Below, in pieces: positions 2,808-55,658 of a stretch of DNA of 64,000 bases. The position numbers were made by a program, and so were the translations under genes. Below the pieces are notes generated by a model. It made no database searches and had not been told where the DNA came from. It saw nothing but the letters and a program-made list of their open reading frames with translations. Origin of the DNA: Planctomycetota bacterium (GTDB taxonomy: Bacteria; Planctomycetota; UBA1135; GCA-002686595); NCBI GenBank assembly GCA_002862085.1, contig PKCK01000099.1:19490-83489 (forward strand). The letters are read 5' to 3'. How positions within the stretch are numbered: position 1 is the first letter of the stretch; each line of letters opens with the position of its first letter.

Positions 2808-4166
2808 ATGGCATCCCCGACCTCCGATCCGGGCGCTGGCCCTGCCCCCCGCCGGGGGATCCTCGGCCTCGTCTTCCTGACCGTGTTCCTCGACATGGTC
2901 GGGTTCTCGATCATCTTCCCGCTCTTCCCCGAAATGCTCGAGTGGTATGTCGGGAAGGAAGGGGCCAGCAGCGCCGTCGGCCGGCTCGCCGCTTCGCTGG
3001 CGGGCATGGTCGACGACCGCGAGTTCGCGGTCATCGTGCTCTTCGGGGGCCTCCTGGGATCGCTCTACTCGGGGGCGCAGTTCCTCTTCGCGCCGATCTG
3101 GGGCGCCGTGTCCGATCGCATCGGACGCCGCCCGACGATCCTCGTCACTCTCCTGGGGACGGCGCTCTCGTACCTCGTGTGGTTCTTCGCGGGGACCTTC
3201 TGGCTCCTCGTCTTCGCGCGGCTGTTCGGCGGCGTGATGGCGGGCAACATCTCCACCGCGTCGGCCGCCGTCGCGGACACCCACGAGGGGAGTGACCGCG
3301 CGAAGGGCATGGGCGTCCTCGGCGCGGGCATCGGGCTCGGGTTCGTGATCGGCCCGGCGCTCGGCGGACTGGCCTCGGGCTGGGACCTGACCGGCCTCTT
3401 CGAAGGCGCCGCCGACGCGGGCGTCAACCCGTTCAGCGGCGCGGCTGCTCTGGCGCTCGGGCTCGCTCTCGTGAACCTGGCGTGGGCGGCGGCGCGCTTC
3501 CCGGAGACGCGAGTCCAGGGTCCCGGTGCGGGCGAGGAACGGCGCGGGCTCAATCCCTTCAGCGCGCTCACGCGGCTCGACTTCCCCGGGGTCAAGGCGC
3601 TCAACCTCGCGTACTTCGTCTACTTCGTCGCCTTCGGCGCGATGGAGTTCACGCTCGTGTTCCTCGCCACGGAGCACCTGGAGTACGAGCCGATGGACAA
3701 CGCGATGATGTTCGTGTTCATCGGCCTGATCATCGCCCTCGTTCAGGGCGGGCTCGTGCGGCGCCTCGTTCCCAAGCGCGGCGAGCGCGCCGTCGCGTTC
3801 ATGGGCATGGCGATGACCCTGCCGGGCTTCGTGTTGATCGCGCTGGTGACCAGGGCGGAGTCGGGTGCGATCCTGTATGCAGGCCTGTTCCTCGTGGCCG
3901 TGGGGAGCTCGATGGTCATGCCCAGCTTCTCGAGCCTCGCGAGCCGCTACGTCCCCGACGACCGCCAGGGTTTCGCGCTCGGGGTCTTCCGGAGCTTCGG
4001 CTCCCTGGCCCGGGTCCTGGGCCCCATCGCGGGGGGCGCCCTCTACTTCGGGCTGGGCAGCATCGCGCCCTACGGGGCCGCCGCGGTGGTCCTCATGGTC
4101 CCTCTGGCCATCACCAGGGGCCTCCCGGAGGTTCCGGCTTCACCCGAGGGCCCGGAAGGCCGATAG
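2808..4166 (+). CDS. MFS transporter (TetA-like)
   Basis: 12-TM-like ORF with MFS motif GAVSDRIGRRPTILVTLLG. Confidence 0.85.
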   Translation: MASPTSDPGAGPAPRRGILGLVFLTVFLDMVGFSIIFPLFPEMLEWYVGKEGASSAVGRLAASLAGMVDDREFAVIVLFGGLLGSLYSGAQFLFAPIWGAVSDRIGRRPTILVTLLGTALSYLVWFFAGTFWLLVFARLFGGVMAGNISTASAAVADTHEGSDRAKGMGVLGAGIGLGFVIGPALGGLASGWDLTGLFEGAADAGVNPFSGAAALALGLALVNLAWAAARFPETRVQGPGAGEERRGLNPFSALTRLDFPGVKALNLAYFVYFVAFGAMEFTLVFLATEHLEYEPMDNAMMFVFIGLIIALVQGGLVRRLVPKRGERAVAFMGMAMTLPGFVLIALVTRAESGAILYAGLFLVAVGSSMVMPSFSSLASRYVPDDRQGFALGVFRSFGSLARVLGPIAGGALYFGLGSIAPYGAAAVVLMVPLAITRGLPEVPASPEGPEGR

Positions 4167-4176
4167 GAACGGCGTC

Positions 4177-4575
4177 ATGATGCGCTTCCAGAACCTCGCT
4201 CTCTGCGCCCTCGGGGCGCTGACCGCGGCCGCCCTCGCCTTCTCGAGTCCCCAGGCCCCCGAGGCCGCTGCCCGGAACGGCGCCGACGAATCGGCCGCCA
4301 TCGAAGCCCGGGTGGAAGCCCTCGAGCGGGAGGTCGCTGCTCTCGAGGCCTTCGTCGAGTCCCAGGCCGCCGCAGGCGCCGCGCTGATCGACGCCCTCGC
4401 CCGCTGTGAGGCGGAGGGCTTCACGGCCGGCATCAACCCGAAGTCCCGCGAGGTCCTCCTCGAGGGCCTCCGCGCCCAGGCCGGCGCCATGAAGGCGGGC
4501 GCCGACGAGAAGAAAGGCGGCGCGAGTTCGAAACGCGTCCGCGGCGACCGGAAGCGCCGCCGCCAGGAGCGTTGA
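4177..4575 (+). CDS. small secreted coiled-coil hypothetical protein
   Basis: ATG at 4177 inside the longer ORF; signal-like N-terminus, then coiled coil ARVEALEREVAALEAFVE and basic tail. Confidence 0.55.
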   Translation: MMRFQNLALCALGALTAAALAFSSPQAPEAAARNGADESAAIEARVEALEREVAALEAFVESQAAAGAALIDALARCEAEGFTAGINPKSREVLLEGLRAQAGAMKAGADEKKGGASSKRVRGDRKRRRQER

Positions 4576-5498
4576 CGGCTCCCCCCGACGCAGCGGCCGA
4601 GGCCCCTGGCCTCGACCTCCTCGTGGATCGCTTCCTCGAGCGCATGAGCGCCGCGCGCGGCGCGTCGGAGCACACGATCAAGGCCTACTCCCGCGACCTC
4701 GCGGACCTCGTGGGCTTCCTCGAGGGTCGCGGCGTGACCGCCCCCGGGGCCATCACTCCCCGCACCCTCCGCGGCTGGCTGGGAGATCTGGACGCCCGCG
4801 ACCTCTCGAGGGCGACGATCCAGCGGCGGCTCTCGGCCGCGCGCACCTTCCTCAAGGGCCTCGTCGACGAGGGCCGGCTCGACGTGAACCCCGCGGTCGG
4901 TCTGCGCCAGCGCAGGTCAGCGCGCCATCTCCCCGGCGTCCTCTCGGAGCAGGAGATCGAGCGCTTGCTCGCGGCGCCTGACGTGAGCGCGCCCCTGGGG
5001 ACACGGGACCGCGCGATCCTCGAACTGATGTACTCCGCCGGAACGCGCGCGTCCGAGACCGTCGGCCTCGACCGTGCGCATCTCGACCTCGACCGGGGCA
5101 TGGCTCGCGTTCTCGGCAAGGGGCGCAAGGAGCGGCTCGTGGCCGTGGGGAGCTTCGCGAAGGACGCGCTGGTCGAATACCTCTCGGACCCGCGGCGCCC
5201 CGCCCCCACCACCGCGGCCGCCGACGCGCTCTTCCTCAGCCAGCGCGGAACACGGCTCACCACCCGCAGCCTCGAGAACATCGTGGCCAAGCACGTGCTG
5301 ACCGCGGGCATCCACCGCCGCGCGACGCCGCACACGCTGCGCCACAGCTTCGCGACGCACCTGCTCGACCGGGGCGCGGATCTGCGCTCGGTCCAGGAGC
5401 TCCTCGGCCACGAGAACCTGGTGACGACCCAGATCTACACGCACGTCTCGGTGGCCCGGCTCGCCGAGATCTACGAGAAGGCCCACCCGCGCGCCTGA
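4572..5498 (+). CDS. xer: tyrosine recombinase XerC/XerD
   Basis: N-terminal SAM-like core-binding domain (EHTIKAYSRDLADLVGFLE) and catalytic motifs SAGTRASE, TPHTLRHSFATHLLDRGADLRSVQELLGHENLVTTQIYTHV; TTG start overlapping the upstream stop. Confidence 0.9.
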   Translation: MTAPPDAAAEAPGLDLLVDRFLERMSAARGASEHTIKAYSRDLADLVGFLEGRGVTAPGAITPRTLRGWLGDLDARDLSRATIQRRLSAARTFLKGLVDEGRLDVNPAVGLRQRRSARHLPGVLSEQEIERLLAAPDVSAPLGTRDRAILELMYSAGTRASETVGLDRAHLDLDRGMARVLGKGRKERLVAVGSFAKDALVEYLSDPRRPAPTTAAADALFLSQRGTRLTTRSLENIVAKHVLTAGIHRRATPHTLRHSFATHLLDRGADLRSVQELLGHENLVTTQIYTHVSVARLAEIYEKAHPRA

Positions 5499-45821: not shown

Positions 45822-46841
45822 TCAGACCAACGTTCGCCCGACGGCGGCTGCGACGACACGGGTCTCCGCGACGAGCGTCGCGAGTTCCCCGGGTAGCAGC
45901 GCCTGTGCGCCGTCGCTCTTCGCCTCCGCGGGACGCGGGTGGCATTCCACCGCCACGCCGTCCGCGCCCGCGGCGATGGACGCGCGGGACAGCGGCGGGA
46001 TCAGCGCGGGGATCCCGGCGGCGTGGCTCGGATCCACGATGATCGGCAGGTGGGTCCACTGGCGCAGCAGCGGCAGCACGGTCAGGTCGAGCGTGTTCCT
46101 CGTGGCCGTCTCGAAGGTCCGGATCCCCCGCTCGCAGAGAATGATCCCATCGCAGCCGTAGGCCGCGAGGTACTCCGCCGCCTGGAGCCACTCCTTGAGC
46201 GTGGCGGAGAGCCCGCGCTTGAGCATCACGGGCTTGCCCACGCCCGCGATCGCCTTGAGCAGGGTGAAGTTCTGCATGTTGCGAGCGCCGACCTGCAGGC
46301 AGTCGATGTCGTGGTCGAGGAAAGCAGGCAGCTGCGATGCGTCCATGATCTCGGAGACGACGGGCATGCCGGACGAGTCGCCCGCCGCCTTCAGGAGCCG
46401 CAGCCCCTCCTTCCCCAGCCCCTGGAACGCGTAGGGACTCGTCCGCGGCTTGAAGCCGCCGCCGCGGAGCACGTGCGCCCCCGCGCGCTTCGCGGTCTCA
46501 GCCGCCTCACCGATGATCTCCTCGCTCTCCACGCTGCAGGGCCCCGCGATCACGGCCACGCCGCGCGCTCCGAAGGGCACGCCGCTGACGTCGACGACGG
46601 TCGGCAGTTCGCGGAACGCGCGGTCGACGCGGCGCCACGAGCCGCGCGGCTTCGTGACCGAATCGACGTGCGGCAAGGCCTCGAGGCGCGCGCGCGTCTC
46701 GTCAGGCACCGGATCGACGGCCGCGAGGATGGGCCTGCGCGACTCGGGCGAGCGGGCGGTGCGGATCCCGGCGGCCTCCAGCTCGCTCACGATCCGCTGC
46801 AGCTCGGCCTCGGACGTGTCCTTCTTGAACGTGAAGATCAT
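45822..46841 (-). CDS. aroF: 3-deoxy-7-phosphoheptulonate synthase with N-terminal ferredoxin-like domain
   Basis: MIFTFKKDTSEAELQRIVSELEAAGI; VAVIAGPCSVESEEI, LRGGGFKPRTSPYAFQGLG, VGARNMQNFTLLK, VDPSHAAG. Confidence 0.95.
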   Translation of the reverse strand: MIFTFKKDTSEAELQRIVSELEAAGIRTARSPESRRPILAAVDPVPDETRARLEALPHVDSVTKPRGSWRRVDRAFRELPTVVDVSGVPFGARGVAVIAGPCSVESEEIIGEAAETAKRAGAHVLRGGGFKPRTSPYAFQGLGKEGLRLLKAAGDSSGMPVVSEIMDASQLPAFLDHDIDCLQVGARNMQNFTLLKAIAGVGKPVMLKRGLSATLKEWLQAAEYLAAYGCDGIILCERGIRTFETATRNTLDLTVLPLLRQWTHLPIIVDPSHAAGIPALIPPLSRASIAAGADGVAVECHPRPAEAKSDGAQALLPGELATLVAETRVVAAAVGRTLV

Positions 46842-47053: not shown

Positions 47054-47914
47054 TCAGGGTGCCTCGAAGCCTCCAGCAGCGCTCGCGGCGGCGACGAGCG
47101 CGGTGACGTAGCGTTCCGCCTCGGCCGCCGCGGCCGCGTCGGCCCCGGAGGGCGACGCCGCCGCCCCGGCGTGGTGGATCGCGTCCACGAGGGCCGAGCC
47201 GACGATGGCGAGCTCCGCGCGGCCGCGGAGGCTCGCCACCTGCTCCGGCGTGCGAAGGCCGAAACCGAGTCCGAGCGGGACACCCGGCGCCGCGGCGCGC
47301 ACCGCACCGAGCCAGGTGCTGGTCTCGTCGCCCACGGCGGTCGATCGACCGGTGACCCCCACGCGTCCGACCACGTACAGGAAGCCGGTCGTCCGCTCCG
47401 CGGCCTCGGCGAGCCGCTCGGGGCTCGTCGTCGGCGCGCAGAAGAGCGAGAGGGTCAGCCCTCGACCACGCGCGGCCTCCGACAGCGCGCCGGACTCCTC
47501 GACGGGGAGGTCGGGGACGAGGAGGCCATCGAAGCCCGCATCCGCGAGCTCGTCGAGACGCGCCTCGACGCCGCCGGAGAGGAGGGGGTTCAGATAGCTG
47601 AAGCAGATGAGCGGCAGCGCCCCACCGCGCGCTCGGTAGTCGCGCACGCACTGGACGACGCCGTCGAGGGTCGCGCCTCCATCGAGCGCCCGCGCAGCGG
47701 CCGCCTGGAGCACCGGACCGTCCGCGATCGGGTCGCTGAAAGGGACACCGAGCTCCACGCACGACGCCCCCGCGCGCTCCACCGCCTCGAGCAGCGAGCG
47801 GGTGCGCGCGAACCCGCCGTCCCCGGCCGTCAGATAGGGGGCGATTCCGGTGCTCCCGCTCGCGAGCAGGCGCGCGGTGGTCCGCACCAGCCGGTTCCGA
47901 TCGACGTCCGTCAC
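47054..47914 (-). CDS. trpA: tryptophan synthase alpha chain
   Basis: [58 protein letters not shown] start. Confidence 0.95.
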
Positions 47915-49140
47915 AGCCGCTCCCCCAGGACGCGCAGCACCGTGTCGAGGTCCTTGTCCCCGCGCCCGGAGAGGTTGACGAGCACGCGCTTGCCCCGGAG
48001 CTCCTCGGCGTTCTCCATGATCCACGCCACCGCGTGGCTGGTCTCGAGCGCCGGGAGGATCCCCTCGCGCTTCGCGAGCACCTGGAACGCGGCGAGGGCT
48101 GCCTCGTCGGACGCCGCGCCGTAGCGGGCGCGACCGAGGGCGTGGAGCGCCGCGTGCTCCGGCCCCACGGCCGGATAGTCGAGGCCCGCGCTGACGCTCG
48201 TGGTCTCGCGTACCTGACCGCCCCCGTCCTGGAGCAGATAGGTGTGAGTGCCGTGGAGCACTCCTGGCGAGCCGCCGCTGAAGCGCGCAGCGTGTGCACC
48301 GGTCTCGACGCCCTGGCCGCCAGCCTCCACTCCCACGAGCTCGACGTCCTCGTCGTCGAGGAAGCCGCGGAAGATCCCGATGGCGTTCGATCCGCCTCCG
48401 ACGCACGCGACGACCGCGTCGGGCCTGCCGCCGGTCCGCTCCTTCACCTGGGCGCGCGCCTCGCGTCCGATCACGCTCTGGAAGTCCGCGACGATCCTTG
48501 GGAACGGGTGCGGGCCGAGGGCGCTGCCGAGCACGTAGTGGGAGCCGTCAGGGTCCTCGACCCAGGCGCGCATCGCCTCGTCGACGGCGTCCTTGAGGGT
48601 TTGAGCCCCGCTCTCGACGAGCTCCACCCGCGCGCCGAGCAGCTTCATGCGCGACACGTTGGGCGCCTGTCGCGCGGCGTCGCGCGCCCCCATGTAGACG
48701 ACGCACTCCAGCCCGAGCCGCGCCGCCGTCGTCGCCGAAGCAACGCCGTGCTGTCCCGCGCCCGTCTCCGCGATGATCCGGGTCTTGCCCGCGCGCTTCG
48801 CGAGCAGGCACTGACCGATCGTGTTGTTGAGCTTGTGGGCCCCCGTGTGCAGGAGGTCCTCTCGCTTGAGCAGCACCTCGGCACCCACGAGCTCCGAGAG
48901 CCGAGGCGCGTCGGACAGCGGCGTCGCTCGCCCCGCATAGGTCGTGAGCAGGAGATCCAGCTCCAGCTGGAACTCGGGATCCTCGCGCGCCTCGAGCCAC
49001 GAGGTCTCGAGGTCCAGGAGGTTCTGCATGAGCGTCTCGGGGGCGAAGCAGCCCCCGAAGCCTCCGAGCAGCGAGGACGCTCCACCCGCGGGTCCGGGGA
49101 AGCGCGTGGGGACCTGGAAGTTCGATCGGGCCTGTCTCAT
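47911..49140 (-). CDS. trpB: tryptophan synthase beta chain
   Basis: [47 protein letters not shown]. Confidence 0.97.
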
Positions 49141-49143
49141 GGT

Positions 49144-49809
49144 TCAGCGGGTGGCAACGGGTGTGCGATGTGCGGCGGCGACGAAGCGTCTGACCGCGCC
49201 GGCGTTCTTCTCGCCGGGCGAGGACTCGAGGCCGGAGGAGGCATCCACTCCGACGAGTCCAGCCGCCGTGAGCCGCGGATCCAGCCCCTCCTCGAGCACC
49301 TTCGCCGTCAGGCCTCCGGCGAGCATGCAGCGGCCCTCGGCGAGTGCCGGGAGGACGTGCTCCACGCTCACGCGCTGGCCGCTGCCCCCGGGGCTCGTCG
49401 GGTGATCGAGGACGAACGCGTCGGCGACGCCGGCCCACGCGGCGATCTCCGCGCAGGCGTCGGCGTCCGCGCCCACGCGCCGGAACACGGCGAAGGGCGC
49501 GGCGCCCCACTCGGCCGGATCCTCGCTCCCGCAGAGCTGGACGTGATCGAGCCGCGCACGCTCCAGCACGCGCTCCACGTCGAGGCGCGGCCGATCGACC
49601 GTCACGAGGACCCCGCGCGTCGCTGTCCCCTGCAGCCGCGCGGCGAGGGTCACGATCTCGGCGTCCCCGAGGTGACGGGGCGAGCGCGGGTACGAGACGA
49701 ACCCGGCGAAGTCGGCGCCGGCCTCGACCGCGGCCGCGACGTCCACCGCCCGCGCGAGCCCGCAGACCTTCGCGGTGAGGGTTCGCTCGAGGTCCAGATG
49801 GCCGCTCAT
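49144..49809 (-). CDS. trpF: phosphoribosylanthranilate isomerase
   Basis: AKVCGLARAVDVAAAVEAGADFAGFVSYPRSPRHL, DHVQLCGSEDP, LAGGLTAKVL, GVDASSGLESSPGEK. Confidence 0.93.
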   Translation of the reverse strand: MSGHLDLERTLTAKVCGLARAVDVAAAVEAGADFAGFVSYPRSPRHLGDAEIVTLAARLQGTATRGVLVTVDRPRLDVERVLERARLDHVQLCGSEDPAEWGAAPFAVFRRVGADADACAEIAAWAGVADAFVLDHPTSPGGSGQRVSVEHVLPALAEGRCMLAGGLTAKVLEEGLDPRLTAAGLVGVDASSGLESSPGEKNAGAVRRFVAAAHRTPVATR

Positions 49810-50609
49810 CATCGCGACCCCCCGGGATCCCGCCCCTCCCGCCACGCGGCGAGCAGCGCGCCGGGATCCGACGCGCGCATCAGCGTCTCCCCCACGAGCA
49901 CGGCGTCGGCGCCGGCGGCGGCCATCCGCGCCGCGTCGGCGGCGGAGCGGATCCCGCTCTCCGCGACCCGGACGTAGCTGGACGGGATCCGAGGGAGGAG
50001 CGACTCCGGCACGGTGAGGTCGACCTCGAACGTCCGCAGATCACGGGCGTTCACGCCGACGCAGTCCGGCTGCACACGCAGCGCGCGGTCGAGTTCGGCC
50101 TCGTCGTGGACCTCGAGCAGGACCGCGAGTCCGAGGTCCCTGGCGGCATCGCGCAGGTCAGCGAGCTCCGCGTCGTCGAGGCAAACCGCCAGGAGCAGCA
50201 CCGCGTCCGCGCCCATGCGAACGCTCCGCTTCACCATGTCGACACCGAGCATGAAGTCCTTGCGGAGCCGCGGGATCCCGGCGCAACCGGCGGCGGCGAG
50301 GTCCTCCGGGTGCCCTCCGAAGTGATCCATCTCCGTCAGGATCGAGAGCGCGTCGGCGCCCGCATCGGCGTAGGCCGATGCGCGCTCCGGAACCGTCAGG
50401 GCGGCACCGAAGTCACCGGCGCTCGGGCTGCGTCGCTTGCACTCCGCGATGAAGGAGAGCCCCGGGCCGCGCAGCGCGCGGGTGAAGCGCGTGACCCGGG
50501 CGGGATCGGGCTCGACCGCTTCCGTGCAGGGGCCGAGGGCCACCTGGCGCGCGCGCACGCTCTCGATGATCGGGTCGAGGCGGGTCCCCGTGCTCCCCTG
50601 CCCGCTCAC
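49809..50609 (-). CDS. trpC: indole-3-glycerol phosphate synthase
   Basis: FIAECKRRSPSAG, LSILTEMDHFGG, LRKDFMLGVDMVKRSVRMGADAVLLL, VGVNARDLRTFEVDL, VAESGIRSAAD. Confidence 0.96.
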   Translation of the reverse strand: MSGQGSTGTRLDPIIESVRARQVALGPCTEAVEPDPARVTRFTRALRGPGLSFIAECKRRSPSAGDFGAALTVPERASAYADAGADALSILTEMDHFGGHPEDLAAAGCAGIPRLRKDFMLGVDMVKRSVRMGADAVLLLAVCLDDAELADLRDAARDLGLAVLLEVHDEAELDRALRVQPDCVGVNARDLRTFEVDLTVPESLLPRIPSSYVRVAESGIRSAADAARMAAAGADAVLVGETLMRASDPGALLAAWREGRDPGGSR

Positions 50610-51643
50610 GAACGCACCTCCGCCGCAGCGGTGAGCCGCACCCAGATGTCCGCGGCGCGCGCTGCGGCCCCCGAGTCGACCGACTCCCGAGCTCTTGCGA
50701 GCGCGACGTCCGCGTCGGACTCGACGCCCGCGACCAGGAGCGCCGCCGCCGCGTTGAGGCAGGTGGCGTCCCTCAAGGGGCCGGGTTCCCCGGCGAACAG
50801 CGCCCGAAGCAGGGCAGCGTTGTGGCCGGCGTCTCCTCCCGCCAGCGCCGTCGCCGGCGCCTCCTCCAGCCCGAGCGCACGCGCCTGGAGCGACGCCGCG
50901 GGCGCTGCGCCGAGGCGCGAGACGAGATTGTCGGGCTCGAGGGTGAGCTCGTCCGCACCTCCCCCGCCATGAACCACGTACGCCGCCTCCGTCTCGAGCT
51001 CCGCGAGGGCCCGCCCGAGGAGATCGACATGACCGCGGGTCGAGACGCCGATCACCTGGCGGCGAACGCCGCCGGGGTTGGCCAGTGGTCCCACGAGGTT
51101 GAAGACCGTCCGGATCCCCAGCGCTCGACGCACGGAGGCGGCGTGGCGCATCGACGGGTGGAACCGGCGGGCGAACAGGAACGTGAAGCCGCACTCGGCG
51201 AGCGCCGCGCGGCTGACCTCGTCGGGCACGTCCACCGCGCCGCCGAGGGCCTCGAGGAGATCCGCCGAGCCGCACTTCGAGGACACGCTGCGGTTGCCGT
51301 GCTTGACCACCTTGGCCCCCGCGCCGGCGGCGACGAAGGCCGCGGCGGTCGACACGTTGAAGGTGCCGAGCCCGTCGCCGCCGGTGCCGCAGGTGTCGAC
51401 GGCGGCCGCCTCTCCGTGCTCGAAGGGCCGCATGGATCGCCGGAGAGCGATCGCGACGCCCGCGACCTCCTCGGGGCTCTCACCCCGCTGGGCCAGCGCG
51501 ACGAGGAGCCCGCCGAGCAGCGCCGGGTCGACGCCTCCACCGAGCGACTCCCCGAAGAGAGCCGCTGTCTCTTCGCGGCCGAGACGGCCGCCGTCGAGGA
51601 CGCGCTTGAGCGCGTCCCGGAACCGATCGTCTGCGCTCGTCAT
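50606..51643 (-). CDS. trpD: anthranilate phosphoribosyltransferase
   Basis: VDTCGTGGDGLGTFNVSTAAAFVAAGAGAKVVKHGNRSVSSKCGSADLLEALG. Confidence 0.97.
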   Translation of the reverse strand: MTSADDRFRDALKRVLDGGRLGREETAALFGESLGGGVDPALLGGLLVALAQRGESPEEVAGVAIALRRSMRPFEHGEAAAVDTCGTGGDGLGTFNVSTAAAFVAAGAGAKVVKHGNRSVSSKCGSADLLEALGGAVDVPDEVSRAALAECGFTFLFARRFHPSMRHAASVRRALGIRTVFNLVGPLANPGGVRRQVIGVSTRGHVDLLGRALAELETEAAYVVHGGGGADELTLEPDNLVSRLGAAPAASLQARALGLEEAPATALAGGDAGHNAALLRALFAGEPGPLRDATCLNAAAALLVAGVESDADVALARARESVDSGAAARAADIWVRLTAAAEVRS

Positions 51644-52248
51644 CGCAGGCTCCCTCCGACCGCCTCGAGGGCCACCGATTCCCCCGCCATCGAGAGGAAG
51701 CGACCCAGCAGCCGCATCCCGAGGGGCGTGAGGATGGACTCGGGATGGAACTGGACGCCGAAGCGCGGCATCGAGCGATGCTCGACCGCCATGACCGCGC
51801 CGTCCTCGGTCCACGCCGTGAGGCGGAGGGACCGGGGCAGCGCGTCGGCACGAGCCCGCAGCGAGTGATAGCGGCCGCAGGTGAGGGGTGAGGGCATCCC
51901 GTCGAAGATCCCCTCGCCCGTGTGGTGGACGAGGCTCGACTTGCCGTGCAAGGGCGCGCCATCCACCTCGAGGGCGCCCCCCTCCGACTCGACCAGGGTC
52001 TGATGGCCGAGGCACACGCCGAGGAGCGGCGTTCCCGCGGGGAGGGCGCGCACCAGGTCCAGGCAGATCCCCGCGTCCGCGGGACGGCCGGGCCCCGGCG
52101 AGAGGACCAGGGCCGAGGGATCGAGCGCGAGGGCTTCGGCGACGTCGAGCTCGTCGTTGCGCACCACGCGCACGTCGGCGCCGAGCATTCCGAGGGCCTG
52201 GTAGAGGTTGAAGACGAACGAGTCGTAGTTGTCGATCAGGAGGATCAT
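51640..52248 (-). CDS. trpG: anthranilate synthase component II
   Basis: MILLIDNYDSFVFNLYQALG, LSPGPGRPADAG, GVCLGHQTLVE, GVQFHPESILTP. Confidence 0.94.
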   Translation of the reverse strand: MILLIDNYDSFVFNLYQALGMLGADVRVVRNDELDVAEALALDPSALVLSPGPGRPADAGICLDLVRALPAGTPLLGVCLGHQTLVESEGGALEVDGAPLHGKSSLVHHTGEGIFDGMPSPLTCGRYHSLRARADALPRSLRLTAWTEDGAVMAVEHRSMPRFGVQFHPESILTPLGMRLLGRFLSMAGESVALEAVGGSLR

Positions 52249-53768
52249 CGAGCGGCCTCCGCGGCCTCGGGGGCGGTGGTGGGCGCGGCCGCGCCCTCTG
52301 GCTGGAAGGCCTCCGACGCGGCCAGCTCGACCGCCTCGAAGAGGGCCTGCGACTTGTGCAGGGTCTCCTCGAACTCGGCCGAGGGGTCGGAGTCGAGCAC
52401 GACGCCGGCGCCCGCCTGGACGAAGAGCTCACCGCGCGAGCAGACGATCGTCCGGATCGCGATCGCCATGTCGAGGTTGCCGGCGCGGTCGAGATACCCG
52501 AAGGCGCCGCCGTAGGCTCCGCGATCACGCTGCTCGATTCCGGCGCACAGGGTCATCGCACGGACCTTGGGCGCCCCGCTGACCGTGCCCGCGGGGAACG
52601 CCGCCTCGAGGGCGTCGATCGCGTCCTTGCCAGCGCTCAGCCTCGCGCGGACCCGGCTCACGAGGTGCTGGACGCGGGGGAAGCGCACGAGCCGGCGGTG
52701 CTCCTCGACCTCGACGCTGCCGAAACTCGCGACGCGACCCGCGTCGTTGCGCGCGAGGTCCACGAGCATGTCGTGCTCGGCGCACTCCTTCTCGTCACGG
52801 CGCAGCTCGGCGCCCAGGCGCGCGTCCTCCTCGGACGTCGCACCGCGGGGGCGGGTCCCCGCGATCGGGACCACCTCGATCCGGCCGTCCTGAACGCTCA
52901 CGAGCCGCTCGGGGCTCGAGCCCACGAGCGTCACATCGCCCGCCTCGAAGAAGAACATGTGCGGCGCCGGGTTCACGAGCCGCAGCACCCGGTACAGAGT
53001 GAAAGCGTCCCCTTCGAAGCGCTGTCGGAAGCGCTGGGAGAGCACGCACTGGAAGATCTCGCCGGCCCGGATCGCCTCCTGCAGGGAGCGGACGCCGGCC
53101 TCGAAGTCCTCGCGAGACATCGAAGGACGCGGCGCGTCCTCCAGCAGCCGGAAGCCACGCTCGGCGGGCGGAACGCCCGCGAGCTCTCGCGCGAGGCGCT
53201 CGACGTGAGCCGCGGCGTCGTGATGATCGGCCTCTCCTCCGGGCGCCGCGCAGAGGATCGTGAGGGTCTGGGCGCCGTGGTCGAAGGCGACCACGTTCGG
53301 GTAGTGATCGAAGAGCGCCTCGGGCTGATCGAAGTCGCGCACGGAGGGCCGCGGGACGCGCTCCTCCAGGGTCGAGGCCCACTCGTAGCTGAGGCTGCCG
53401 ATCCAACCGCCGCGAAACGGCGGCAGGTCGGGGTGCGCGGCCCCGGCCCCGGCGCGCCCGGTGCGCCGCGAGGCCTCTCGGAGGGCATCGGACGGCCCGA
53501 GGGGCAGGATCTCCTCCGCGCCGCTGCCGATCCTGAGGGAAGCGCGCTCCGCCCCGCCGCGGAGCTTCCCGTCAGGGTCCACGGCGACGAAGCTGTGGCT
53601 CGCGAGCCGCTCCGGCCCCTCGACCGACTCCAGCAGCGTTCCCTGACGGCCGGCGGCCCGCAGCAGCTCGAAGGCACGGACCGGGGTCAAGCGATCAGCG
53701 GGGTAGACCGCCCAGGCGAGCTGGTGGGTCGCCGCGTCGGCAGGAGTGGATCGTCGAAGGGGCTTCAT
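52245..53768 (-). CDS. trpE: anthranilate synthase component I
   Basis: GEIFQCVLSQRFRQRF, LVGSSPERLV, PIAGTRPRGATSEED, DLARNDAGRVASFG, FPAGTVSGAPKVRAM, GAFGYLDRAGNLDMAIAIRT. Confidence 0.96.
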   Translation of the reverse strand: MKPLRRSTPADAATHQLAWAVYPADRLTPVRAFELLRAAGRQGTLLESVEGPERLASHSFVAVDPDGKLRGGAERASLRIGSGAEEILPLGPSDALREASRRTGRAGAGAAHPDLPPFRGGWIGSLSYEWASTLEERVPRPSVRDFDQPEALFDHYPNVVAFDHGAQTLTILCAAPGGEADHHDAAAHVERLARELAGVPPAERGFRLLEDAPRPSMSREDFEAGVRSLQEAIRAGEIFQCVLSQRFRQRFEGDAFTLYRVLRLVNPAPHMFFFEAGDVTLVGSSPERLVSVQDGRIEVVPIAGTRPRGATSEEDARLGAELRRDEKECAEHDMLVDLARNDAGRVASFGSVEVEEHRRLVRFPRVQHLVSRVRARLSAGKDAIDALEAAFPAGTVSGAPKVRAMTLCAGIEQRDRGAYGGAFGYLDRAGNLDMAIAIRTIVCSRGELFVQAGAGVVLDSDPSAEFEETLHKSQALFEAVELAASEAFQPEGAAAPTTAPEAAEAAR

Positions 53769-53835
53769 GGAGGGAGGAGTCGGCAGGGGCGGCGGGCGGC
53801 TCGGAGGAGGGGCGGTGAGGGCCCGGCAAAAGGAC

Positions 53836-53869
53836 GCGGGCCCTCGAGAGAGGTCTCTCGAGGGCCCGC
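53836..53869 (-). terminator. trp attenuator terminator hairpin (candidate)
   Basis: Minus strand GCGGGCCCTCGAGAGA-CC-TCTCTCGAGGGCCCGC then GTCC TTTT; perfect 16-bp arms, 68 nt upstream of trpE. Confidence 0.8.
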
Positions 53870-53924
53870 AGGTGTTCGATCGGTCGCGCTCGTCGGCGCG
53901 GGAGGCTCGTGTCGGCTCGGACGG

Positions 53925-54029
53925 TCAGGACGCGCGAGCCGGAGCCCCCGGGGAACACCCGGGGCCCTCGGGCCACCATCGCCAGAGCCAGGAAAGACTC
54001 GCGAGGTTCATGTCGTCGGAGCGGCGCAT
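53925..54029 (-). CDS. trpL: candidate trp leader peptide (alternative start at 54011)
   Basis: MRRSDDMNLASLSWLWRWWPEGPGCSPGAPARAS; four Trp codons within six codons at 53973..53990, directly upstream of the terminator hairpin and trpE. Confidence 0.82.
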   Translation of the reverse strand: MRRSDDMNLASLSWLWRWWPEGPGCSPGAPARAS

Positions 54030-54182
54030 CGCTGAGGGAACACTAGGCCCACGCACGGGTCGCGCCACTCTCGCGTGCTCAAAAATCTCGCGCGGTGCGA
54101 CCCTCGGCCCCAACGGTCTGCCTCGACGTGATCGCGAGCAGATGGCTCCGCTTGCCCCGCCCACGACGGGTCCCCGGGCGCC

Positions 54183-55553
54183 TCAGCGCGCCACCGCGAT
54201 CGTCTTCGGCACCGTGAACTGCCGGTGGCCGTCCGCGCCGCCGAGGAACCCGAAGCCGCTCTGGCGCGCGCCGACCCAGGGAGTCGTCGACGTCCCGCCG
54301 AGGTAGCGATTCACGCCGACCTGGCCGGCGCGGAGCCGACGCGCCACGCGCTGGGCTCGCTCCGCATCGGCGGTCCAGACGTTCGCTCCGAGGCCGTAGA
54401 TCGTGTCGTTCGCGAGCCGGACGCCCTCGTCCTCGCTCCCGTCGAAGCGCGTCACCGACACCACCGGACCGAAGGTCTCCGCGTGCGTGATCGGGTTGTC
54501 CTGGGCCACGCCGGTGAGGACCGTCGCGGGATAGAAGCACCCGGGTCCCTCGGCCGGCTCGCCCCCCATGACCAGCCGCGCGCCCGCCTCCACGGCCGCC
54601 CGCACCTGGGCGTCCACGCGATCCCGCTGTCCCGCCGAGACCAGCGGCCCCATCTTCGTGCCCTTCTCGCGCGGGTCGCCGTGGGTCCAGCTCCGCGCGA
54701 GCTCCTCGACCTTCGCCTCGAACGCGTCGGCGATCTCATCGGCCACGTAGACACGCTCGATGGAACAGCACACCTGGCCGGTGTTCCGCAGCGAGTGGTC
54801 CACGGCGCACCGCGCAGCCTCGTCGACGTCCGCGTCGCCGAAGACGACGAGCGGGTCCTTGCCGCCGAGCTCGAGCACCAGCCGCTTCAAGGACCCGGCC
54901 GCCTCCGACATGATGCGCGCACCGGTGTCGCGGCTCCCGACGAAGCCGATCATGTCCACGTCCGAACGGACGAGCTCTGCGCCGACGTCGCCCGCCCCCT
55001 GGACGAGCTGGAGCACGCCCGCCGGGAGGACCTGCTGCAAGAGCTCCGCCAGCCGCGCGCCGACCAGAGGCGTGTGCTCGCTCGGCTTGAAGACGACGGC
55101 GTTGCCCGCGACGAGCGCCGGCGTGAGGATCGAGAGCGGCATCCCGACCGGGAAGTTCCAGGGGGTGATCGCGGCCACGACGCCGAGGGGCTCGCGCACG
55201 ACGGTCACGTCCTGAGTGCTGGACGCAGGCCGCTCCGGCGCGAGGGCTGCAACGACCTGGTCGACCTCGTCCGCGACGGAGCCCGCGTAGCTCTTCACTT
55301 CACCCACGGCGCTGCGGAGGGTCTTGCCCATTTCGCGCGTGATCAGCGCGCCGAGCTCCTCCGCGTCCGCTGCGAGCAGCTCGCCGAACCTCTCGAGCCG
55401 CGCGGCCCGCTCCTGGATCGGCTCCGCGCTCCAGGCCTCCGCGGCGGCTCTCGCGTCCGCGGCCGCGGCCTCGACCTGCTCCGGGCTGGCGAACGGAATG
55501 TCGGCGATCGTCTCGCCGGTCGAGGGGTCGATGTCCGGGAACGTGGGGCTCAT
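54183..55553 (-). CDS. aldehyde dehydrogenase family protein (succinate-semialdehyde dehydrogenase-like)
   Basis: TPWNFPVGMPLSILTPALVAGNAVVFKPSEHTP, LELGGKDPLVVFGDADVDEAA, NTGQVCCSIERVYV. Confidence 0.92.
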   Translation of the reverse strand: MSPTFPDIDPSTGETIADIPFASPEQVEAAAADARAAAEAWSAEPIQERAARLERFGELLAADAEELGALITREMGKTLRSAVGEVKSYAGSVADEVDQVVAALAPERPASSTQDVTVVREPLGVVAAITPWNFPVGMPLSILTPALVAGNAVVFKPSEHTPLVGARLAELLQQVLPAGVLQLVQGAGDVGAELVRSDVDMIGFVGSRDTGARIMSEAAGSLKRLVLELGGKDPLVVFGDADVDEAARCAVDHSLRNTGQVCCSIERVYVADEIADAFEAKVEELARSWTHGDPREKGTKMGPLVSAGQRDRVDAQVRAAVEAGARLVMGGEPAEGPGCFYPATVLTGVAQDNPITHAETFGPVVSVTRFDGSEDEGVRLANDTIYGLGANVWTADAERAQRVARRLRAGQVGVNRYLGGTSTTPWVGARQSGFGFLGGADGHRQFTVPKTIAVAR

Positions 55554-55658
55554 GGGCACAAGGGTAGCCGCAGCGCACGCGGTGGTGGCGACGGGCGGAC
55601 GGACACCGAACGGAGACCAGGAGAGGGGCCTCTCGCTGACGCGAGCAGCGCGCTCGCT

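Follow-up and report, generated by a model that had tools for sequence, protein, structure and literature searches.

A very probable ribosome-mediated trp attenuator with a Trp-rich leader ORF upstream of trpE in a planctomycete

Introduction

The first hairpin of the Escherichia coli trpL leader contains the Trp codons in its 5' arm. In Sinorhizobium meliloti, the leader RNA (trpL/rnTrpL) begins at the ATG of trpL and is a small leaderless mRNA (PMC7298713). The trp attenuators of actinobacteria (Corynebacterium, Streptomyces) are characterized by double or triple UGG codons, GC-rich terminators and poly-U tracts, and a complementary triple, gGCC-rGCy-GGCC, is common to their antiterminators and terminators (PMC1262725). 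An attenuator in the trpRBA intergenic region of Chlamydia trachomatis was predicted by Merino and Yanofsky (2005), according to a citation within PMC6504234, and robust experimental support for it is described there as lacking.

Here we analyzed a stretch of 64,000 nt (the whole of which is called the window) from a genome of 4.39 Mb in 132 contigs, with 90% completeness. An earlier note, made from the letters alone, had supposed a planctomycete host. This proved right, in that the genome shares its genus with the one carrying the Poly30 locus (Planctomycetes bacterium Poly30, CP036434, which we take to be Saltatorellus ferox), and the Saltatorellus ferox lineage belongs to Planctomycetota. 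The same note had read tandem Trp codons and a terminator before trpE as a candidate Trp attenuator, a reading that is now supported by conservation and by concerted changes of the strands. New with respect to the note are the antiterminator, a hairpin adjoining the Trp codons, a likely leaderless start and the distribution within the TrpE clade. We conclude that the element very probably serves the trp operon (trpE, G, D, C, on to trpB) as a ribosome-mediated transcription attenuator.

Results

The trp operon and its leader ORF

The features of the locus are collected in Table 1. Its place at the front of the run trpE-G-D-C led us to assign the first gene as TrpE and not as PabB. A trpA gene is probably also present, judging by ORF position, and the locus apparently holds a full trp operon. 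Directly past the trp genes, an ORF at 45822-46750 on the minus strand resembles 3-deoxy-7-phosphoheptulonate (DAHP) synthase by eye and may share the operon. Another chorismate-binding enzyme, probably PabB-like and 38% identical to TrpE, is encoded at 1259-2434 of the window, also on the minus strand.

Table 1. Positions of the attenuator parts and trp genes (window coordinates, except for the last row)
Feature	Position	Strand	Evidence or remarks
-10-like hexamer TAGTGT	54040..54045	minus	ends 10 nt before ATG 54029
trpL leader ORF	53925..54029	minus	34 aa from ATG 54029, 28 aa from ATG 54011; MRRSDDMNLASLSWLWRWWPEGPGCSPGAPARAS
Regulatory Trp codons TGG CTC TGG CGA TGG TGG	53973..53990	minus	direct sequence reading
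A:B hairpin, right after the Trp codons	53939..53971	minus	-23 kcal/mol; folding and comparison
Segment A, antiterminator 5' strand, GAGGGCCCCGGGTGTTC	53953..53969	minus	pairs with segment C
Segment C, antiterminator 3' strand and terminator 5' arm, GAACACCTGCGGGCCCTCGAGAG	53855..53877	minus	pairing analysis
Intrinsic terminator C:D, 15-bp stem, loop ACCT	53836..53869	minus	-34.2 kcal/mol
Terminator U-rich tail, GTCCTTTTG	53827..53835	minus	leader survey
trpE, anthranilate synthase component I	52245..53768	minus	TIGR00564, E 1.4e-133, 446 bits, below equivalog cut-off 518
trpG	51640..52248	minus	TIGR00566, 185 bits, above cut-off
trpD	50606..51643	minus	TIGR01245, 325 bits, above cut-off
trpC	49809..50606	minus	NF001377, E 4.6e-65
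Probable trpF	49144..49845	minus	ORF located between trpC and trpB
trpB	47911..49140	minus	TIGR00263, 564 bits, above cut-off
trpE of the second trp cluster, L155 (G000:C52:1-9000)	3374-4765		own WWWW leader ORF

Direct reading bore out the W-rich minus-strand ORF and the four Trp codon positions that had been reported for it. The ORF starts at ATG 54011 or at the in-frame ATG 54029, ends at TGA 53927-53925 and has the translation MNLASLSWLWRWWPEGPGCSPGAPARAS; its Trp codons (pattern W.WRWW) occupy 53990-53988, 53984-53982, 53978-53976 and 53975-53973. Across the four same-genus loci the four TGG codons were unchanged, whereas the codon between them differed (CTC/AGT/TCA/TCC). The pattern W.WRWWP.GPGCS.G was kept in the other three (L002-L004), whose leaders read SWSWRWWPTGPGCSPG, NWSWRWWPSGPGCSRG and SWSWRWWPKGPGCSRG.

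Distribution among TrpE relatives

Relatives of TrpE were drawn from the order, class and phylum, the clade being taken as about 50% identity or more. A leader was scored when, no more than 75 nt after an ORF with a Trp cluster, there was a hairpin with four or more T in 9, and the reverse strand of the same upstream regions served as background. A Trp-cluster ORF plus terminator was found in 34/41 upstream regions of the TrpE clade, versus 2/41 on the reverse strand; the seven clade loci without a leader were L006, L010, L011, L017, L026, L119 and L133. Thus in this group a trp gene is indeed preceded by a short ORF that could be translated and in which Trp codons cluster. Conservation of the W-rich ORF and the hairpin near trpE orthologues had been proposed as a check, and both were kept in the three same-genus relatives that retain this trpE (L002-L004, including Poly30, CP036434) and across the order. 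The leader is mostly missing upstream of the other, canonical planctomycete TrpE type, for which 55 regions gave six forward and three reverse-strand matches, and perhaps four of the six look real. In five further genomes of the genus (G002, G003, G004, G007 and G008) a TrpE of the window's type was absent; these genomes may be incomplete, or their hosts may be auxotrophic for Trp. A contig that bears the label Byssovorax sp. (Myxococcota; L034) also has this TrpE type (57%) and one of the leaders, RRWWWRSGPELSSGSG, which could reflect transfer or a mis-binned planctomycete contig.

The comparison with the same-genus loci also bears on the idea that the hairpin merely terminates an upstream gene and that the Trp-rich ORF arose by chance. 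An aldehyde dehydrogenase gene (54183-55559) does share the strand of the hairpin, with its end 313 nt upstream. Yet this gene was not found upstream in L002-L004, where the Trp ORF and hairpin are nevertheless present, a strong counter-argument, and such an origin leaves the Trp codons and the A:C complementarity described below without a role. We regard it as extremely improbable.

The terminator hairpin

The terminator has the sequence GCGGGCCCTCGAGAG-ACCT-CTCTCGAGGGCCCGC, and its stability corresponds to z = -7.4 against shuffled sequence. It was the one terminator-like site in the 600 bases from 53700 to 54300, where 0.1 were expected. The hairpin had been placed some 55 nt past the ORF stop with trpE beyond the stem, in agreement with our measurements of 55 nt from the stop to the hairpin and 67 nt from the hairpin to the trpE start (53768). 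It had further been called a perfect 16-bp repeat followed by U4. Its length of 16 bp stands, but it is composed of 15 Watson-Crick pairs plus one flanking U.G and is not perfect; likewise, U4 is present in the tail (GUCCUUUUG), but GUCC interrupts the tract ahead of it. An intrinsic terminator thus separates the leader ORF from trpE, the first structural gene, with a U-tract that is weak and interrupted in the window (GUCCUUUU).

Termination in planctomycetes has been little studied, and this, together with the imperfect U-tract, would suit an arrangement in which the leader ORF senses Trp and control is exerted on translation, with the trpE start hidden, or through Rho instead of an intrinsic terminator. 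Against this, each of the 33 leaders analyzed had one strong hairpin ahead of trpE, with T residues in its tail (T5-T7 in several), and the trpE start of the window lies outside the hairpin, at the distance given above. Control at translation or by Rho is very unlikely, and termination at the C:D hairpin is the reading followed here.

The antiterminator A:C and the first hairpin A:B

Because the MAFFT registers of A and C slipped by one between loci, pairing was assessed with an alignment-free own-versus-cross test, in which the pairing of A with its own C was compared with that of A with the C of other loci, permuted. A was defined as the stretch following the last Trp codon and C as the terminator 5' arm plus the preceding 15 nt, and 27 loci were used after removal of near-duplicates. 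With 40-nt A segments, the own mean was -31.1 kcal/mol versus -25.1 kcal/mol for the permuted pairs (z -8.0; z -7.2 with the three same-genus relatives left out). In sliding 20-nt windows, the signal was confined to starts between -5 and +10, counted from where the last Trp codon ends, and peaked at starts 0 to +5 (z -8.9); it was absent upstream of the Trp codons and at least 25 nt past them, two borderline windows (p 0.02-0.04) aside. The terminator itself, as positive control in the sliding test, gave z -13.7.

Examination of 6-mers revealed that D is a copy or near copy of A and that C is complementary to both. Concerted alternatives of A, C and D were observed, namely GGCCC (window), GGTCC (L003 and L004, and separately L027 and L028), GACCC (L014) and AGCCC (L015). 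The terminator arms and the antiterminator strand thus alter together, as the compensatory changes suggested as a check would have it, and a competing antiterminator pairing, incompatible with the terminator, is in place.

In most loci, a second hairpin, A:B, begins 0-5 nt past the last Trp codon. In the window alone it is not exceptional (z -0.2 versus shuffles, in GC-rich sequence); the case for it therefore comes from the comparison across loci, where its arms were locus-specific (own-versus-cross z -5.7, 27 loci). A classical hairpin 1 containing the Trp codons was unsupported, since the Trp-codon stretch gave z 0.8 and 0.6 against A and B. Because the A:B arms are locus-specific and the Trp stretch pairs specifically with neither, the Trp codons are placed next to the first hairpin and not inside it. 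The parts of the element, their conservation and the pairings A:C, A:B and C:D can be read from the sequence and its comparison among loci.

Given that the leader is strongly structured overall (z -3.7), one might suppose that a Trp-binding protein or a riboswitch-like RNA governs the hairpin and that the ORF is incidental. The fold of the whole leader is dominated by long-range pairs and is uninformative. Against such control, no Rfam family matched the leader at the gathering threshold, including RF00513 (Trp_leader); when hits with E up to 10 were admitted, the top one was a 34-base piece of RF00514 (His_leader) at the terminator, with 22.9 bits versus a cut-off of 49. Moreover, conservation is focused on the in-frame UGG clusters and on the segment exactly downstream of them. 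We give control by a protein or riboswitch hardly any credence, and the ribosome-mediated attenuator remains the preferred reading.

Transcription start

A consensus scan found no strict sigma-70 promoter and no -35 match. The -10-like hexamer of the window has the same 10-nt spacing to the equivalent ATG in L002 and L004, and on account of this spacing in the window's genus ATG 54029 was favored over ATG 54011. Among the 27 loci, 14 had a TANNNT whose end lay 6-7 nt ahead of an in-frame ATG or GTG (0.8 expected), and 21 had one at a spacing of 5-10 nt (2.4 expected). From this spacing, transcription is inferred to start at, or a few nt from, the start codon. The leader mRNA is thus probably leaderless; in the window's genus it would be nearly so. 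A likely leaderless start is probably the most distinctive trait of the attenuator.

Switch logic

The ribosome was simulated by folding with its footprint excluded, on a transcript ending before the terminator 3' arm (D). In this model, A:C pairs averaged 15.6 when the ribosome occupied the first Trp codon and 10.3 when it occupied the last, and dropped to 3.5 and 0.4 once it stood 9 and 18 nt beyond. On these pre-D transcripts, then, the folding model has a stalled ribosome free the antiterminator strand and an advancing one hide it. With the full-length transcript at equilibrium, the terminator won in nearly all simulated states. Since it wins once D exists, the switch must be kinetic; a kinetic decision is usual for known attenuators. 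A:C was once more permitted in the model when the ribosome sat at the stop codon, so the real behavior would hang on the polymerase pausing and coupling that we presume.

The following mechanism is proposed. Transcription would begin at, or a few nt ahead of, the AUG of the Trp-rich leader ORF. At low levels of charged tRNA-Trp, the ribosome would stall on the Trp codons and leave A exposed, A:C would form before D is made, and, with no C:D terminator, the polymerase would continue into trpE. When Trp is ample, the ribosome would advance onto A, or A would refold with B behind it; C would then be free for D, C:D would form and transcription would end. The transcription start, the stalling, the pausing and the response to Trp are the presumed elements of this scheme.

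A second trp operon and other leaders

A second trp cluster was found in the same genome, on contig C52, with a TrpE that is 46% identical; relatives in the class are at 51-60%. The presence of this TrpE type in relatives makes contamination less likely. The C52 leader is MPHSLPTPLTLSTNWWWWCASEARRG, and its hairpin is without a clear U-tract, unlike those of its relatives L158 and L160-L163. Most relatives of the C52 TrpE have a Trp-rich ORF ahead of a hairpin, several with T6-T7 tails. The leaders of L158-L163 contain WAWSW, WWW, WRW or WSW, and a GTGGGTTTTTTCGTGC-type terminator follows in 5/6; A:C pairing was seen in these by eye only. In another planctomycete family (L166 and L167, from G267 and G419), leader ORFs with ALWWIP and VIWWIP precede terminators with nine T, and these are probably independent trp attenuators.

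Discussion

As far as could be checked, the attenuator is ordinary in kind, with no new mechanism, and new in its phylum: no earlier report of a trp attenuator in Planctomycetota was found in the openly readable literature, and priority is uncertain. Classical trp attenuation is hereby extended to Planctomycetota, with comparative evidence sufficient to name each strand. Attenuation requires ribosomes close behind RNA polymerase; a working attenuator would therefore imply transcription-translation coupling in planctomycetes, whose cell organization has long been debated. The loci also supply testable sites, including one in the complete genome of the same-genus Poly30.

Tentatively, and as a possibility that we would not yet favor, the element may be a planctomycete variant that combines a leaderless leader mRNA with Trp codons abutting the A:B gating hairpin. 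The leading edge of the stalled ribosome would open the base of this hairpin, and its upper 5' arm and loop would capture the terminator arm. Such a variant would have travelled with one TrpE clade, with a parallel form on the second trp operon of the same genome.

Like E. coli trpL (RF00513), the present leader has an ORF with Trp codons and a mutually exclusive antiterminator and terminator before trpE. The E. coli-type geometry, with Trp codons in a segment 1 that is paired with segment 2, was not found; in contrast to E. coli, the Trp codons are located just 5' of the first hairpin and do not pair with A or B in a locus-specific way. The leaderless start of S. meliloti trpL may have a counterpart here, as judged from the -10 spacing; the present element differs from that attenuator of trpE(G) in phylum, peptide and operon, the trp genes here following trpE in one run. 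Compared with the actinobacterial attenuators, the triple is similar, but it is mostly GGYCC-GGRCC-GGYCC here, with an extra A:B hairpin and in a different phylum. Unlike the present element, the one predicted for C. trachomatis precedes trpBA in an operon also under the control of TrpR and YtgR; what the two have in common is a Trp leader peptide, which is a prediction in Chlamydia, whose phylum likewise belongs to the PVC group.
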